From: Actinomycetes bacterium
GTDB taxonomy: Bacteria; Actinomycetota; Acidimicrobiia; Acidimicrobiales; Acidimicrobiaceae
Direction: 5' to 3'
Length of the DNA: 64,000 nt
NCBI GenBank assembly: GCA_021777475.1
Contig: JAJYDM010000002.1
Span: 1 to 64,000, forward strand
The stretch's first letter is position 1. Each line of letters opens with the position of its first letter. A program made the position numbers and the translations under genes. Shown here piece by piece: positions 30,898 through 37,551 of the stretch. The notes beneath the pieces are model-generated. The model saw only the letters and a list, made by a program, of their open reading frames with translations. It did no database searches and was not told where the DNA came from.

Positions 30898-31568
30898 TGG
30901 CCACATCCCACCCGGTCAAAATTCCAAAAGAACTTGCTGGGCTCCTTGCCGACAAACAGGAGCTGATTAGAGCCACCAAAGGATTCATGCCGCCAGACGA
31001 GGGAAAGGCTTTGGCCCTGGCCCTTTATGAATGCGACCTCCCTTATGACGTTCCGGCAGTTGAGATTGGCTCGTACACAGGGCTTTCAACCATTTACCTT
31101 GGTACCGTTGCCAAACGGCAAATGAGATCCCTGGTATCGGTTGACCATCACCGTGGCTCCCAAGAGAACCAGGCGGGATGGGAGTATCATGATCCAACCC
31201 TGGTTGATCCCGTTTCAGGAAAAATGGACACCCTCTACCTGTTCCGACGAACAGTCGAGCTTGCACGACTTGCTGAAACTGTGATCATTGCAGTTGCAGA
31301 TTCACAGAAGTTTGCCAATGCCTTCTCCGTCGAAATAGGTTTTCTCTTCATAGACGGAGGACACGGAATCGCGGAGGCAACTGGCGACTATGAAAGCTGG
31401 GTTCCCAAGATCACCCAAGGGGGCCACCTTGCCATCCATGACGTTTTCACCGACGCTTCCCTCGGCGGACAGGCTCCATTTCTCCTCTACCAAAGAGCCC
31501 TTGGTGAGGGATTCCGCGAGACCATGTCCCAGGGAAGCCTTCGCGTTATGAGAAAAGACTCAAAATAG
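30897..31568 (+). CDS. Class I SAM-dependent methyltransferase (Methyltransf_24/CmcI-like)
   Basis: A 223-residue Rossmann methyltransferase with AVEIGSYTGLST as the SAM motif, SVDHHRGS as the acidic-strand region and FLFIDGGHG plus HLAIHDVF further on, like cephalosporin-hydroxylase-type CmcI enzymes. It starts on the last base of the pepN stop, so translation may be coupled. Its 3' end overlaps by 23 bp the convergent toroid gene, whose operon also carries a methyltransferase and a GT4. The substrate is unknown. Confidence 0.8.
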   Translation: MATSHPVKIPKELAGLLADKQELIRATKGFMPPDEGKALALALYECDLPYDVPAVEIGSYTGLSTIYLGTVAKRQMRSLVSVDHHRGSQENQAGWEYHDPTLVDPVSGKMDTLYLFRRTVELARLAETVIIAVADSQKFANAFSVEIGFLFIDGGHGIAEATGDYESWVPKITQGGHLAIHDVFTDASLGGQAPFLLYQRALGEGFRETMSQGSLRVMRKDSK

Positions 31569-32565
31569 TCGAACCGATACTTTTCCGCGCTTTGACTGAA
31601 AGTATGAAACTCGAAATGATCACTGCCGCCACCGAATAGGAAGACTGTTCGAGATGAGGAAACGAGGCACCGGTTGGTCCTACCATGCCTGTAAGGTAGC
31701 CGCCATTCGTTCCACGAAAGCGCTCAAGAGCTAAATACACATCCTGCGCCAAGGGTTCCTCCCCGGCAATGTGCAGGGCCATCGCCGTCTCGGCAGTCTC
31801 CGCCGCTGTGAACCAATCATTTCCCAGGATGCAGCGGATACCCCAGTCCGGCAGATAGAAGCGACTGAGAAAACCTTCTGTAAGACGGCATGCGTCGTTG
31901 ACGCCACCAAGAACGGGGTAGTAATGGTCCATCGCCCAGCCCGCGGTGTCCGAATAGGGCCCCACAGCGGCCGAAACCGAACTGTTAAGTGCTGCGCTCG
32001 CTTCTTCATAACGGAGCCCGTCCCCAATTCCAAACCGCCTGGCAAGTTCCGCTGCAACCATGAGTGAATCGCATATAGAGGACGAGGCCGCAATGAGCGA
32101 AGTTGGATGGCCATTCCCGTCTGGATCGACAGCCCACGGGATCGAACCATCATCCCTTTGATAGGTTATGACGTGGTCAAGTCCCCGCAGAGCCATCTCC
32201 ACATACGGCTCAATCACCCGCCTGTCACCGATCAACCGGTCCAGCACCGCAACCAGGACCACCGGGTAGCTACAGGTGTTGGTGTCCCTTCTGGGCTCCG
32301 CGACTCCTCTCGAAAGGTAGAAGTGGCACCAGGAACCGTCGCCGTTCTGCATCTCAAAGAGCCATTTGGCCCCGGCCAGAGCTTCGTCCAGCCTGCCGCC
32401 AAGTGCAAGGGCCATCGCTGCCTCGGCGTGATTCCAAGGATCAGCCCTTCCTCCCTTGAACCAGGGGATCATCCCAGACCTCAATTGCAGTGAGACCAGA
32501 AAGGAAAGTGAAGTCTCGAGCGCCGCTCTTTCAAGCAGCGACTCGCATGACTTACTCGACCGCAC
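31546..32565 (-). CDS. Alpha/alpha-toroid (prenyltransferase/squalene-oxidase-repeat) protein
   Basis: A 339-residue protein of repeated helical hairpins with motifs such as NGDGSWCHFY, RDDGSIPWAVD and NDWFTAAETAETAMALH, the pattern annotated as prenyltransferase/squalene-oxidase repeat. It lacks the DCTAE or DXDD motifs of real triterpene or diterpene cyclases, so a binding or glycan-processing role (the toroid is also a glycosidase fold) is as likely. The GTG at 32565 has AAAGGG five bases upstream and overlaps the preceding methyltransferase by 14 bp. Last gene of the GT4-methyltransferase-toroid group. Confidence 0.75.
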   Translation of the reverse strand: MRSSKSCESLLERAALETSLSFLVSLQLRSGMIPWFKGGRADPWNHAEAAMALALGGRLDEALAGAKWLFEMQNGDGSWCHFYLSRGVAEPRRDTNTCSYPVVLVAVLDRLIGDRRVIEPYVEMALRGLDHVITYQRDDGSIPWAVDPDGNGHPTSLIAASSSICDSLMVAAELARRFGIGDGLRYEEASAALNSSVSAAVGPYSDTAGWAMDHYYPVLGGVNDACRLTEGFLSRFYLPDWGIRCILGNDWFTAAETAETAMALHIAGEEPLAQDVYLALERFRGTNGGYLTGMVGPTGASFPHLEQSSYSVAAVIISSFILSVKARKSIGSTILSLFS

Positions 32566-33271
32566 TTGAACCCTTTCTGGCATACAAGACGAGGCTCTTG
32601 CCTCCAAGCGGATTCAACACTCTCTCCAGGAGTTTGATAAAGCGTGGCTTCCTGGTGATGTCCCAAACCAGGAAGCGGTGGTAAAGCCTGTAGCTCCTTG
32701 ACTTGGTATTGTTGACTCCCACCAGACACCTGATCAGCCAGTATGGCGTATGCAATGCATGTGCGTGATGAAGCGAGTAAACGCCAAGACCAGCCTCCTT
32801 CGCCAACCTGATCACCTCGGACCGCCGGTAAATGCGAATATGGCCGCCCGGAACGTTGTGATATTCCGAAGAGACCAACCAGTACAGCGACTCTGGAAGG
32901 AAGCGCGGCACAGTAACGCAAACGGTTCCGCCCGGCGTCATCACCCTGGCAATCTCCGCCATCGCTGCCTTATCATCCGGAATGTGCTCGAAGACCTCGG
33001 ATGCAATAACAACGTCAAATGTGGAATCGGCAAACGGGAGCTGCAGCCCGGATGCCTGCACGGCAAAACCGTAGCCACATCCTGGATTGTCTGCCGCCAG
33101 AGCTTCGAAAAATGCCGGTGCGCTTTCGATCTCCTCTAGCGCTATGTCCACTGCCACCACCTTTGCCCCTTGAGTCACCGCCCAGAACGCGTGCCGGCCT
33201 GCTCCTGCTCCAAAGTCGAGGACTTTCTTTGCATAAATGTCGCCCAGCTTCGACGGTCTAACGCTAAGCAT
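32552..33271 (-). CDS. Class I SAM-dependent methyltransferase
   Basis: A 239-residue methyltransferase with VLDFGAGAGRHAFWAV as motif I, VVAVDIALEEI as motif II and FDVVIASEVFEHIPDD in the Methyltransf_11 style. The tail (YWLIRCLVGVNNTKSRSY and following) resembles a class I recall beside GT4 and toroid genes in other actinobacteria. It follows GT4 by 28 bp and overlaps the toroid gene. Probable role: methylation of a glycosylated lipid or small molecule made by the cluster (inference). Confidence 0.82.
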   Translation of the reverse strand: MLSVRPSKLGDIYAKKVLDFGAGAGRHAFWAVTQGAKVVAVDIALEEIESAPAFFEALAADNPGCGYGFAVQASGLQLPFADSTFDVVIASEVFEHIPDDKAAMAEIARVMTPGGTVCVTVPRFLPESLYWLVSSEYHNVPGGHIRIYRRSEVIRLAKEAGLGVYSLHHAHALHTPYWLIRCLVGVNNTKSRSYRLYHRFLVWDITRKPRFIKLLERVLNPLGGKSLVLYARKGSSAVE

Positions 33272-33299: not shown

Positions 33300-34577
33300 C
33301 TAATCCTCGCCGCGCGCTGACAAGAGATCGAAATAATTTTGCTCTGTAGCTCTCGCTGTAGCCTCCCAGGTGAACTTGCTCATGACCCGTTCCATTGCGT
33401 TCCTCCCGAGTTCGTCACGCAGAATTGAAGAGTCAAGAGCTTGCAGTATCTTCTTGGCGAGATCGAGATAGTCTCCAGCGCGGGCCATGAGTACCGTCTC
33501 TCCATCTGTACCGGTCACCTCCGGCAAAGCACCGCCATCCGTGGCGACCAACGGCACACCACATGCCATGGCTTCAACGGCTGGCAGCGAAAATCCCTCA
33601 TATAGGGACGGGACAACCGCCACCTCGGCCCGGTTGTAAAGACGAACCATTTCGTCTTGTGCGACCACCCCGGCAAATTTAACGTACGCATCCAAACCAA
33701 GTTCAAACACCCTGGAGGGCAGGTTCGACCCCTTGTTTGGGTTTCCAATGATTACCAGGTGCGACTTGGGCTCGACGTTCTTAACCTCCGCCATCGCCTC
33801 CACCAGCACCTGAAGTCCCTTAAGCGGAACGTCCGCGCTGGCGGTGGTCACGATCAAGCCAGGCTCTCTCCTTATAGCTGGATTCGGCTTGAAAACCGAG
33901 GTGTCTACACCAATTGGTACAACCCTCGAACGCTCCAGAGCCACGTTCATGTATTTGAAGAGATCAGTCCGCGAAGTTTCCGAGACCGTCAAGACTCTTT
34001 CCATCCGACTGGCCACCTCGGACTGCATCTTCACAAAGCCATACCACCGGTAAGCACCGATCTTTGACTTCAGCCCCCGCCCATGTTCAATAGCAAGAGC
34101 CCGGTCGACTGTAATGGGATGATGGATCGATCCTATTACTGGCAAGCCCTTCTGCGCTAACCTCAGAATTGACCAGGACAAGGACTGGTTGTCGTGTATC
34201 AAATCGAAATCTCCAAGACGCGACTCCAGCGCGCGCTCCAGACGCCAGCCGAACGTCCTCGGTTCTGGAAAGCCGCCACTGCACATGAGCGCAAACTCCG
34301 CGACATCGATTAGCGAACCGAACTCCTCAATCTTTGGAATTCTAAACGGATCCTCCGCCCGGTAAAGATCCAACGATGCCAACTTATTGAGCACCACCGA
34401 TTCAGGATCCAGGTCAGGGTATGGCTGCCCGGAATACACCTCCACCGTGTGACCGCGTTTGGCCAGTTCATGAGAAAGGTGCTTAGTGTATACACCCTGA
34501 CCACCCGAGTATGGATTTCCACGGTAAACGCAAAAAGCAATACGAAGAGGTCTCAAATCACCTGTGCGCTTATTCAA
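33300..34577 (-). CDS. Glycosyltransferase family 4 (GT-B fold)
   Basis: A 425-residue retaining glycosyltransferase. The N-terminal domain shows FCVYRGNPYSGGQGVYTKHL, and the donor-binding domain has the EX7E motif in SLYEGFSLPAVEAMACG and the following VATDGGALPEV. Soluble or peripheral, no membrane segment. The TTG start sits one base past the transporter stop, so it is probably cotranslated with the NRAMP-like gene. Acceptor unknown. Confidence 0.88.
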   Translation of the reverse strand: MNKRTGDLRPLRIAFCVYRGNPYSGGQGVYTKHLSHELAKRGHTVEVYSGQPYPDLDPESVVLNKLASLDLYRAEDPFRIPKIEEFGSLIDVAEFALMCSGGFPEPRTFGWRLERALESRLGDFDLIHDNQSLSWSILRLAQKGLPVIGSIHHPITVDRALAIEHGRGLKSKIGAYRWYGFVKMQSEVASRMERVLTVSETSRTDLFKYMNVALERSRVVPIGVDTSVFKPNPAIRREPGLIVTTASADVPLKGLQVLVEAMAEVKNVEPKSHLVIIGNPNKGSNLPSRVFELGLDAYVKFAGVVAQDEMVRLYNRAEVAVVPSLYEGFSLPAVEAMACGVPLVATDGGALPEVTGTDGETVLMARAGDYLDLAKKILQALDSSILRDELGRNAMERVMSKFTWEATARATEQNYFDLLSARGED

Positions 34578-34578
34578 G

Positions 34579-35883
34579 CTAAAGCCATCCGATTACCGTT
34601 TGCACCATAAGCACCGCCGATAGCCCCGCGATCGCAATCACTGAGATGGCCGCAACTTTCCTGAAAATTCGTCCATTCACCGCATCACCAAGAACACTTC
34701 GCCTGTTTGAGAGAACCACGATAAATGTGAGAATAATTGGGGTAAGCAGACCCTGCAGCACCTGGGTGAATATCAGAAGCGTGATGAGGTTAACCGGAAC
34801 TAGCGAAACTGCAGCGCCAAGAAGCACCTGGGCAGAAAATAGTCCCAAGAAAAGAGGCGCCTGTCGAAACTTCCTCGAAACCGATCTCTCAACGCCAAGA
34901 GCCTCCGCAACGGCGTACGACGTCGATAGAGGAACCACAGCACCCGCCAAAGCGGACGCACCAAGCAAACCGATGGCAAAAAGAATCACTGCATGGGAAC
35001 CAGCGACAGGTGCAAGCGCCAGTGCCGCTTGTTTCGCCGAGCTCAGTGGTCCGGTGCCTCCAATGGCAGCCGCCGTGGCAATGATAATGAAAATCGATAT
35101 TATGTCGGCGAAAATTGCACCGCCAACAGCATCTGCACGCTCAAGCGGATACTCCTCCGGGGAGATGCCCCGGTCAACCACTCCCGCCGCGGCATAGACC
35201 TGCATATAAGGCGAGATCGTTGTTCCAATCAACGCAACCCCAAGAAATATAAAACTGTTTGAAACGATAAAATGCGGGAAGATGGTTTGTGCAGCCACCT
35301 TGTGCCAATTGGGATGCCCAAGTACTGCAGCCACCGGGTAGGCAAAAAAAGCCAATGACATTATTAGGAAGATCCGCTCCGCATAGCGGTACGAGCCGAA
35401 CACCACCAAGCCCCAGATAAACAACGCCGACATGGGGATCGACACGTAACGCGAAACCCCGAACAGCTGGAAAGCGGCGCCAATGCCGGCAAACTCCGAA
35501 ACGACAAGACCTGTATTCGAGGCCGTCAATGCAACCATAGCCAATCCGGTCAGCCTGACTGAGAACTCCTCGCGGATCAAAGCAGCTAGACCCTTGCCGC
35601 TGTAAACCCCGAGCCTCGTCGACATCTCCTGAACCACAACCAGCCCGACCGTAACCAGTACCATGAAAAACAATGTCCGGTAGCCAAACTGAGATCCAGC
35701 CGACGAATATGTTGCAATGCCACCGGCGTCATTACCCGCGTTGGCGGCGATCAGACCGGGGCCGGCTGCGGCTAGGTATACCCAGAACGGCCGCTTCCTC
35801 TTAGACGTGGAAACGCCGAAATGCACGCCGAAATGCCTACGTCCATTTTGATTGACTTTGCGCTTCGGCGCGGCTGAACTCAC
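34579..35883 (-). CDS. NRAMP-family divalent cation transporter with non-canonical metal site
   Basis: An 11- to 12-helix NRAMP-fold transporter, 434 residues, with a basic N-terminal tail of about 30 residues. In helix 1 the canonical DPGN is DAGG (residues 52-55): the Asp is kept, the Asn is lost. In helix 6 the canonical MPH(N) is SPY(M), so the Met and His are missing. These are the residues that select Mn2+/Fe2+ in classical NRAMPs, so a different ion, plausibly Mg2+ as in NRAMP-related magnesium transporters, is likely. It follows by 46 bp a soluble MgtE_N/CBS protein, which supports magnesium. Confidence 0.82.
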   Translation of the reverse strand: MSSAAPKRKVNQNGRRHFGVHFGVSTSKRKRPFWVYLAAAGPGLIAANAGNDAGGIATYSSAGSQFGYRTLFFMVLVTVGLVVVQEMSTRLGVYSGKGLAALIREEFSVRLTGLAMVALTASNTGLVVSEFAGIGAAFQLFGVSRYVSIPMSALFIWGLVVFGSYRYAERIFLIMSLAFFAYPVAAVLGHPNWHKVAAQTIFPHFIVSNSFIFLGVALIGTTISPYMQVYAAAGVVDRGISPEEYPLERADAVGGAIFADIISIFIIIATAAAIGGTGPLSSAKQAALALAPVAGSHAVILFAIGLLGASALAGAVVPLSTSYAVAEALGVERSVSRKFRQAPLFLGLFSAQVLLGAAVSLVPVNLITLLIFTQVLQGLLTPIILTFIVVLSNRRSVLGDAVNGRIFRKVAAISVIAIAGLSAVLMVQTVIGWL

Positions 35884-35929
35884 AATGAAACCTCATCACC
35901 AGCTGACTCAATACTTCGCAACTAATTGG

Positions 35930-37264
35930 TTAGGAAAGCAAACGCGGGAAATGGAACCGTCCCCGCTCCGGAGATAGAGCATCGATAATGTCATCGGCCA
36001 GTATTCTGCCAATTGGCCTTTGATCCACCGCAACGACAATTGAAAAACGGCGGGAGCCGATGAGCTTTTCCGCCACTTCGCCAAGAGGTGTTGCGGGCTC
36101 CACGACGACCGGATCCTCAGATATCAACGCAGAAACTGGCACCACGCTATCAGCCAACGCCAACTCGTAAAGGGATACCTCGCCAAGCAGTATGCCCTCG
36201 AAGTCGACCACAAGCACGCCGTCTATCTCGTCCTTGTGATCGCGATGGGACTCCAAAAGGACCTTTACCTCGCCTACGGAGTCATTTGGCAGAACTTTGA
36301 CCAACATGGTCGTCATTACACCGCCTGCCGTATCGGCCTCAAATTCGAGCAAGTTTCCCAGCGCCCGGGCGGCTTCCGGTGCCATCAGCTCAAGAATCTC
36401 TTCCCGCTCGTCTTCATCAAGATCTCTCAAGGCCTCAACCGCCTCGTCGGGTTCCATGTACGACACAATGTCTGCGGCAACCTCCGGCTCCGACTCTCTG
36501 AGCAGAGCCTCGCGTTCGGCGGACTCCATCTCCTCTATGGCATCTGCCGCCGTCTCAATATCCAAAGCCGATAGCAATCCTTGGCGCTCGGTTCGGCCAA
36601 GATCCTCAAGAAGATCGGCAAGTTCGCTAGGCCGCAACCTCTTTATCGCCTGTTGCGAACTGCGCAGCCTGACAGCTCCAGTGTGCTCATCGAATGGAGC
36701 GACGGCGGCCCAGTCGAGAACCTTCTCCGGTGTTGCCGTTGAACGAAATCTTGCCGGGCCAAATCTTCGCAGCAATGAGTACATACTCACATCGACGCCG
36801 ACCAGCCTGAGGCGGCCCAGGGCATGAGCCAGGAACAAATCTGCAGCTCTTAGAACCTGCACACCGTCGACATCGACAAGCTGATGGTCAAGAATCTCTT
36901 TACCAAGTAGGACTTCTCCAGGACGTTGAGAAAAGTCCCTAAGATCCAATGTGGAGGAGGAAAGAACCACCGAGTCCCGGGAAAATGTCTCCACCCTATC
37001 GATGTCAACAAACGCGATTCTACGCCCGATCTTCACCAAGATTCCAGTGACCGGCGGATAGTCGGCGTCCTGGGACCACCGAACGACGACATCGACAAGT
37101 GTGCCGATTTCGGATCCGTTTTCGTTTATCACTCGTTTACCAGTATTGCCCGCCAAGGAAATGATCGACTCTCTGATACTCTTTATCGTCAGAAGTCGCT
37201 GAGATCTTGACTGTCGCATGCTTCGGATCCTGCGTGGATCCAACAGAATTGGCCTTCGCGCCAT
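35930..37264 (-). CDS. Stand-alone MgtE N-domain + CBS protein with PRC-barrel N-terminus (no channel domain)
   Basis: A soluble 444-residue protein. Residues 1-180 contain PRC-barrel-like strands (GSEIGTLVDVVVRW). About 205-300 is an acidic helical superhelix typical of the MgtE N domain (PSELADLLEDL, AADAIEEM, EAVEALRDLDEDERE). A CBS pair follows from TAGGVMTT. The five membrane helices of MgtE are absent and no membrane segment is visible. In MgtE the N and CBS domains bind Mg2+ and gate the pore; here they may gate or regulate the NRAMP protein encoded next. AAGGAGG lies about eight bases before the ATG. Confidence 0.85.
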   Translation of the reverse strand: MARRPILLDPRRIRSMRQSRSQRLLTIKSIRESIISLAGNTGKRVINENGSEIGTLVDVVVRWSQDADYPPVTGILVKIGRRIAFVDIDRVETFSRDSVVLSSSTLDLRDFSQRPGEVLLGKEILDHQLVDVDGVQVLRAADLFLAHALGRLRLVGVDVSMYSLLRRFGPARFRSTATPEKVLDWAAVAPFDEHTGAVRLRSSQQAIKRLRPSELADLLEDLGRTERQGLLSALDIETAADAIEEMESAEREALLRESEPEVAADIVSYMEPDEAVEALRDLDEDEREEILELMAPEAARALGNLLEFEADTAGGVMTTMLVKVLPNDSVGEVKVLLESHRDHKDEIDGVLVVDFEGILLGEVSLYELALADSVVPVSALISEDPVVVEPATPLGEVAEKLIGSRRFSIVVAVDQRPIGRILADDIIDALSPERGRFHFPRLLS

Positions 37265-37344
37265 AGGACTGTCCTCCTTTCACGTGGAGAAACGCCCTAG
37301 GAGATCAACCGCAAATTCTGATTCCCAAGCCAGCTGCTCTTAAA
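37265..37344 (-). promoter_or_regulatory. Leader between the small ORF and the MgtE_N gene; possible SD-occluding hairpin
   Basis: The AAGGAGG ribosome site can pair with TCTCC just upstream (minus strand, 37290-37286 with 37277-37272), and also with CTCCT further up, so it could be masked. This is a weak fold drawn by eye. I looked for M-box sequence conservation and found none. Confidence 0.3.
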
Positions 37345-37431
37345 TCAAAAAATCGTTATTGGCGGTGAAATCCGGAGGGACGTCATGAACGAATAGTTGA
37401 AGTCGGTACTGTGAGGTTCACTAGGCTTCAT
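37345..37431 (-). CDS. 28-codon leader ORF with perfect Shine-Dalgarno, before the MgtE_N/NRAMP genes
   Basis: ATG at 37431 is preceded by AGGAGGTGA (nine bases from AGGAGG to ATG), one of the best ribosome sites in the window. The product begins MKPSEPHSTDF and ends SPPITIF, with prolines and acidic residues early, then TGA. Pro/acidic leader peptides destabilise ribosomes at low Mg2+ in known mgt leaders, so this ORF may sense Mg2+ and control the downstream genes. Its end is 80 bp from the next ATG. Translation is well supported; the function is inference. Confidence 0.55.
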   Translation of the reverse strand: MKPSEPHSTDFNYSFMTSLRISPPITIF

Positions 37432-37551
37432 GGTCAATCACCTCCTAAGCTCGGCCAATACTACGCAGCGTTAACTGCCAACAACAGAATAGCTGACGAT
37501 TGGGGCAAAGGGCGGCAAAAAAGTGCAGATTAGCTCGATAAATTTGCGAAT

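Follow-up and report, generated by a model that had tools for sequence, protein, structure and literature searches.

Which metal does a transporter of the SLC11/NRAMP fold carry when its gene follows one for the Mg2+-sensing domains of MgtE, and does the detached sensor control it? This question is raised by a locus in an Acidimicrobiaceae genome (2.28 Mb, 139 contigs, 96% complete), of which we analysed a stretch of 64,000 nucleotides, here called the window. The original prediction saw in two minus-strand open reading frames (ORFs) an NRAMP-related Mg2+ transporter and a detached MgtE gate, and both ORFs are present at the positions given for them:

35930..37264, minus strand: sensor gene, ORF of 444 aa, with PRC-like front, MgtE_N domain and CBS pair, without transmembrane part
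34579..35883, minus strand: NRMT-type SLC11/NRAMP transporter gene, ORF of 434 aa, Pfam Nramp E 3.5e-75
35719..35730, minus strand: TM1 metal site DAGG (D52, G55), aligned to EleNRMT D55 and G58
35212..35223, minus strand: TM6 metal site TTIS (T221, S224), T221 aligned to EleNRMT T224

The sensor gene lies 5' of the transporter gene on the same strand, at an intergenic distance of 46 bp. The closest named locus is L099 of an Acidimicrobiaceae MAG (Actinomycetota), the two transporters being 89% identical. A GT4 glycosyltransferase gene (33300-34577, minus strand) starts one base past the end of the NRMT gene; this position is kept throughout the genus and in several relatives, and the two genes are probably co-transcribed. 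The window further encodes a 353-aa protein (31546-32607, minus strand) with no Pfam or NCBIfam match, which is conserved in L099, L100 and L101, where its gene is found downstream of the same gene cluster.

Among solved structures, the window transporter is best matched by EleNRMT of Eggerthella lenta (PDB 7qia, 333 bits over 407 residues), whereas structures of Mn2+ NRAMPs reach at most 66 bits. By its sequence it is a member of the NRMTs, the Mg2+-transporting clade of SLC11/NRAMP. NRMTs have been defined by the signature DxxG-TxxA/T, and D55, T224 and Q379 of EleNRMT are functionally important (Ramanadane et al., PMC8806188). SLC11 fold and homology, the DxxG of TM1 and the first Thr of TM6 are all found in the window transporter. 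The NRMT functional residues D52, G55, T221, Q374 and E130 are retained, Q374 being aligned to EleNRMT Q379, so that D55, G58, T224 and Q379 of EleNRMT are all conserved. The DAGG and SPY motifs of the original prediction are present (TM1 GNDAGG, TM6 GTTISPYMQ). Its statement that the ligands for Mn and Fe are lost holds for the Asn, the Met and the TM6 histidines, whose positions are occupied by Tyr and Ala, but not for the Asp ligand, which is kept as D52. S224 replaces the Met of Mn NRAMPs and the Ala or Thr of most NRMTs (Ala in EleNRMT); the Met is thus exchanged, but the literal published A/T consensus is not followed. Among 126 aligned NRMTs, the TM1 Asp is found in 123 and the Gly in 125, and at the fourth position of the TM6 motif 78 have Ala, 37 Thr and 11 Ser. 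Ser is therefore a natural variant, common to the genus members and the two family relatives examined. These residues suggest that the window NRMT would transport Mg2+ without proton coupling. A second NRMT subfamily, with APWQ in TM6, was observed in L189, L190, L024 and L103; a sensor is nearby in these too, in L024 and L190 on the opposite strand to the NRMT gene.

The upstream gene encodes the following domains:

36665..37165, minus strand: PRC-barrel-like region, residues about 34-200, E 0.026 here, beta-rich in the model
36332..36637, minus strand: MgtE intracellular N domain (PF03448), the sole one found in the genome
35966..36331, minus strand: CBS pair, with D425 and D428 (aligned to D247 and D250 of Thermus thermophilus MgtE)

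Profiles (MgtE_N E 2e-20, CBS E 1e-10, pore absent) and the structural model agree with the predicted MgtE N and CBS domains without a pore. The AlphaFold model has a mean pLDDT of 84.6, its top Foldseek matches are MgtE cytosolic domains (2oux, E 3e-19), and against 2yvy the TM-score is 0.83 on target length. The predicted PRC front stands less firmly: in the window sensor the match (E 0.026) is below the Pfam gathering cut-off, although it is clear in relatives (6e-14, 6e-12) and the region is beta-rich in the model. The MgtE pore (PF01769) with its pore Asp and the acidic plug helix are absent from the sensor protein, the pore also from the genome; the window sensor is therefore not an MgtE but just its sensor part. 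With the MgtE channel of T. thermophilus (PDB 2yvx/2yvy) it shares the N domain, the CBS pair and most Mg2+-sensing acids. In an alignment based on the Mg2+ sites described in PMC5882242, E59 corresponds to D241, D91 to D273, D95 to E277, D247 to D425 and D250 to D428; the acids of sites Mg4, Mg6 and Mg7 and one of two acids of Mg5 are thus retained. The window sensor differs from the channel by the added PRC-like front, by Arg in place of D226 (Mg5) and by the absence of the plug-helix acids (Mg2, Mg3). ATP-site residues of MgtE are mostly not retained. Such a pattern would be expected if the sensor had ceased to pull on a plug helix of its own.

The original prediction took the pairing to be uncharacterised. 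It is not new: in 2014 Shin et al. (PMC4072509) gave NrmT its name and demonstrated that it transports Mg2+. They also noted that the majority of NrmT genes adjoin one encoding the N-terminal cytoplasmic domain of MgtE, and proposed cytoplasmic feedback. They tested one pair, that of Acidobacterium capsulatum: its transporter gave full rescue of a Mn2+ defect but just partial rescue of a Mg2+ defect, and the sensor gene was without effect. A literature search of mostly open-access papers found no later work on the NRMT/sensor pair. As in Ca_c0685 (Clostridium acetobutylicum) and ACP2976-2977 (A. capsulatum) of that report, the NRMT gene of the window adjoins a gene for the MgtE cytoplasmic domain; in contrast to them, the window operon lacks an M-box, its NRMT has TxxS in place of TxxA/T, and an upstream open reading frame (uORF) encodes an EPHST leader.

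The count of co-occurrence that the original prediction had proposed as a check shows that adjacency is far from rare. A sensor lies within about 5 kb in 63 of 80 named NRMT loci (Actinomycetota, Acidobacteriota, Bacillota, Thermodesulfobacteriota, Chloroflexota and others), and in 246 genomes of the phylum a sensor lies within 3 kb of 49/64 high-scoring NRMTs versus 0/70 lower-scoring NRAMPs; these percentages lean upwards, since the NRMT profile was built from NRMTs with an adjacent sensor as seeds and the 80 loci were the closest to the query, but neither explains so large a contrast with other NRAMPs. The sensor is upstream on the same strand in 61/80 loci, with a median gap of 13 nt and frequent 4-nt overlaps, and this recurrent order excludes chance. 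Seventeen loci have no sensor nearby; in five of these the sequence available upstream is shorter than 2 kb. Among the NRMT loci examined, none had the NRMT and the sensor naturally fused. In L046 (7086-7676) and L057 (7209-7799), the NRMT gene is followed by one for a separate protein of ~196 aa, which matches the sensor's PRC part.

The sensor module is also found in other contexts. In two actinobacterial genomes PRC-MgtE_N-CBS is fused to a full MgtA-type pump of 1317 aa in total (L059:1277-5230 and L061:1277-5230; TIGR01524 1077 and 1099 bits, cut-off 610.75). Other sensors carry a five-helix MgtE-like tail. NRMT adjoins these in 20 of 31 cases, among them L042, L043, L048, L050, L053, L054, L058, L147 and L150 (the model of the L150 sensor was not used, its TM part having a pLDDT of about 50). 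In all 34 aligned rows of tailed sensors, from 31 different loci, the pore Asp column is lost, and in 33 of them the Asn of the GN motif is lost as well. Sensors with one transmembrane helix, unlike the soluble window sensor, occur at L026, L028, L033 and L040, next to NRMTs with the TM6 motif of EleNRMT. In a tree of sensors, the MgtA fusion groups with the tailed forms in one clade (support 92) within mostly soluble forms, the one-helix forms are nested in the five-helix forms (support 99), and the window sensor falls in a clade of soluble, NRMT-adjacent sensors. A reduction from five helices to one inside the tailed clade would thus be well nested. A stepwise origin of the soluble sensors from tailed ones is unsupported, the tailed forms being one clade and the root unsure. 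The sensor-MgtA fusion and the tailed clade with lost pore residues are new here. Finally, L064, L072 and L079 have a stand-alone PRC-MgtE_N-CBS gene without NRMT. A gene for a DUF1003 membrane protein follows it in L072 and L079 (two loci checked); DUF1003 is a possible further partner of the sensor. A Mrp-like ATPase gene is found near it in L064 and L079.

These contexts bear on whether the sensor acts on the transporter at all. It could instead be a Mg2+ buffer or chaperone, or the regulator of another target, co-transcribed with the NRMT gene for convenience. Stand-alone sensors beside DUF1003 and Mrp-like genes would fit this, as would the missing effect of co-expression in A. capsulatum and the loss of D226 and of the plug-helix acids; the latter three also count against a gate, together with the fact that NRMTs transport Mg2+ without the sensor, the poorly retained ATP-site residues, the 17 NRMT loci lacking a nearby sensor and the failure to find NRMT and sensor fused. 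We nevertheless consider a sensor that does not gate unlikely, because the adjacency is tight, repeated and confined to NRMT as opposed to other NRAMPs, and because the same module is fused to another Mg2+ pump. The MgtA fusion is the best available evidence that the module may act on Mg2+ transporters other than MgtE, and it lends support to a throttling gate. We infer that the sensor gates the window NRMT.

As for the metal, an M-box riboswitch was found upstream of 10/10 tested NRMT loci of Bacillota and Geobacteraceae. In one locus of a Pelosinus MAG (L163:3043-3532), two tandem M-box riboswitches precede a single sensor-NRMT operon. The source genome of the window has one NRAMP and one MgtE_N, and neither CorA, nor an MgtE pore, nor a P-type ATPase above the MgtA cut-off was found in it. 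MgtA was considered as an alternative importer and rejected, the best P-type ATPases of this genome being Ca2+-like and H+-type; genus member G247 does have MgtA above cut-off. CorA is absent from 12/12 family genomes examined (the window's own and 11 relatives). In ten of these there is a close orthologue of the NRMT (69-97% identity), in the remaining two only a more distant NRMT-like gene, the one in L189 with the NRMT signature and an adjoining sensor. In the 246 genomes of the phylum, both CorA and an MgtE pore are missing from 15/63 genomes with NRMT versus 8/183 without it (Fisher 3e-5, uncorrected for kinship). No relatives were found on viral contigs.

That the pair imports Mn2+, alone or together with Mg2+, the sensor reporting Mn2+ or total divalent cations, has in its favour the stronger rescue of the Mn2+ defect by A. 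capsulatum NrmT, the transport of Mn2+ by EleNRMT in vitro (PMC8806188) and the absence of another NRAMP from the window genome. M-box control of many homologous operons, a family without CorA and MgtE, the phylum-wide depletion of these importers, the fusion of the same sensor to MgtA and the loss of the TM6 Met ligand speak against it, and we hold Mn2+ import to be improbable. The adjacency beyond chance and the CorA- and MgtE-depleted genomes support the central idea of the original prediction, an NRAMP-related Mg2+ transporter accompanied by a detached MgtE N-CBS sensor.

The M-box (RF00380) had no match in the window nor in the actinobacterial NRMT loci L099, L105 and L110. Upstream of the sensor gene we found the following elements, which are the most unexpected part of the locus:

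37438..37446, minus strand: Shine-Dalgarno sequence AGGAGGTGA of the leader uORF, its GGAG invariant in 16 aligned leaders
37345..37431, minus strand: leader uORF MKPSEPHSTDFNYSFMTSLRISPPITIF, its EPPST/EPHST motif conserved in about 12 lineages
37265..37298, minus strand: hairpin including the Shine-Dalgarno sequence of the sensor gene, predicted by folding of the leader

A conserved EPHST/EPPST leader before a sensor gene is apparently unreported. Elsewhere the peptide begins with MNLDEPPST, MNSSEPPST, MPASEPPST, MKSGEPPST, MQAGEPPST, MQQGEPPSS, MHTHEPPSS or MQNKGEPPS, and in further loci with MTGDIPHS, MPAGDIPHS or MLGDPSST. Among small ORFs preceded by a Shine-Dalgarno sequence in 1.62 Mb, 36 matched the motif, several being alternative starts or copies of one locus, so that the distinct lineages number about 12-13; 34 are located 203-485 nt before a sensor domain; of the remaining two, that in L190 precedes NRMT and the other is unrelated. 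Because the loci themselves supplied the motif, these counts test how specific it is, not its discovery. The motif was absent from 19/19 upstream regions of CorA, MgtA and MgtE genes. In the 1.02 Mb (about 45%) of the window's own genome that was scanned, the peptide motif was matched once more (L255, MALSAMEPSS) and the DNA once in degenerate form, neither match having the full element. The leader uORF was not found in L100, L102, L105-L107, L110, L113 and L117.

Within the genus, the start codon and silent third positions are the only sites at which the first nine leader codons vary, and later codons drift. The leader folds better than shuffled sequences (z -2.7), and seven genus members retain the hairpin over the sensor Shine-Dalgarno sequence, one base pair being changed on both sides as slight covariation. 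The serine codon is AGT in 16/16 aligned leaders, GC-rich ones included, so that a constraint at the RNA level is also likely. Nucleotides fixed beyond the need of the peptide could even mean that the conserved leader acts as a structured regulatory RNA and not as a translated peptide. This seems somewhat unlikely in view of the strong Shine-Dalgarno sequence, a start at near-fixed spacing and an open frame with a stop in all lineages; moreover, Pro3 and His7 show third-position changes, and Rfam gave no match of note in the window leader or, up to E 1, in seven leader loci. As a translated leader, it has the features of the MgtL type: a short predicted uORF lies before a Mg2+ transporter operon, follows a Shine-Dalgarno sequence and has acidic and Pro codons near its start. 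E. coli MgtL, with EPDP, works by ribosome drop-off at low Mg2+ (PMC11282234), and in Salmonella mgtQ the ribosome-binding site of mgtB is freed through Asp2 and Glu5 (PMC8092293). The window leader resembles these enterobacterial uORFs in its shortness, its codons and its place before a Mg2+ transporter gene; it differs by an unrelated sequence, a different phylum and a different transporter.

Taken together, we propose with moderate confidence that the two genes serve Mg2+ import by an NRMT that is throttled by a detached MgtE gate, with the leader probably setting synthesis. By analogy with EleNRMT, the transporter would carry partly hydrated Mg2+ inwards through its expanded TM1/TM6 site without proton coupling. 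The PRC-MgtE_N-CBS protein would be a cytoplasmic Mg2+ gauge derived from the regulatory domain of MgtE. Internal Mg2+ would fill the N and CBS sites and compact the sensor, which may then throttle NRMT in trans and not via a plug helix of its own; the PRC-like domains are a candidate contact surface for NRMT. Translation of the leader uORF is expected, from the MgtL and mgtQ examples, to respond to low Mg2+ and to alter access to the ribosome-binding site of the sensor gene.

In a wider sense, PRC-MgtE_N-CBS may be a transferable gate, applied to the MgtE pore, to NRMT in trans and to MgtA by fusion, and in Acidimicrobiia-like actinobacteria the NRMT operon may be controlled in addition by a Mg2+-sensing leader peptide that works through destabilisation of the ribosome and evolved separately from enterobacterial MgtL. 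This broader proposal is tentative. The MgtA fusion and the relatives with dead pores are independent evidence of a module that would work on Mg2+ transporters besides its own pore, and the fused sensor-MgtA form makes gating testable within one polypeptide. In the leader group, the operons tested are without an M-box. If the proposal is true, the EPPST leader would represent a second translation-based switch for Mg2+, of independent evolutionary origin.
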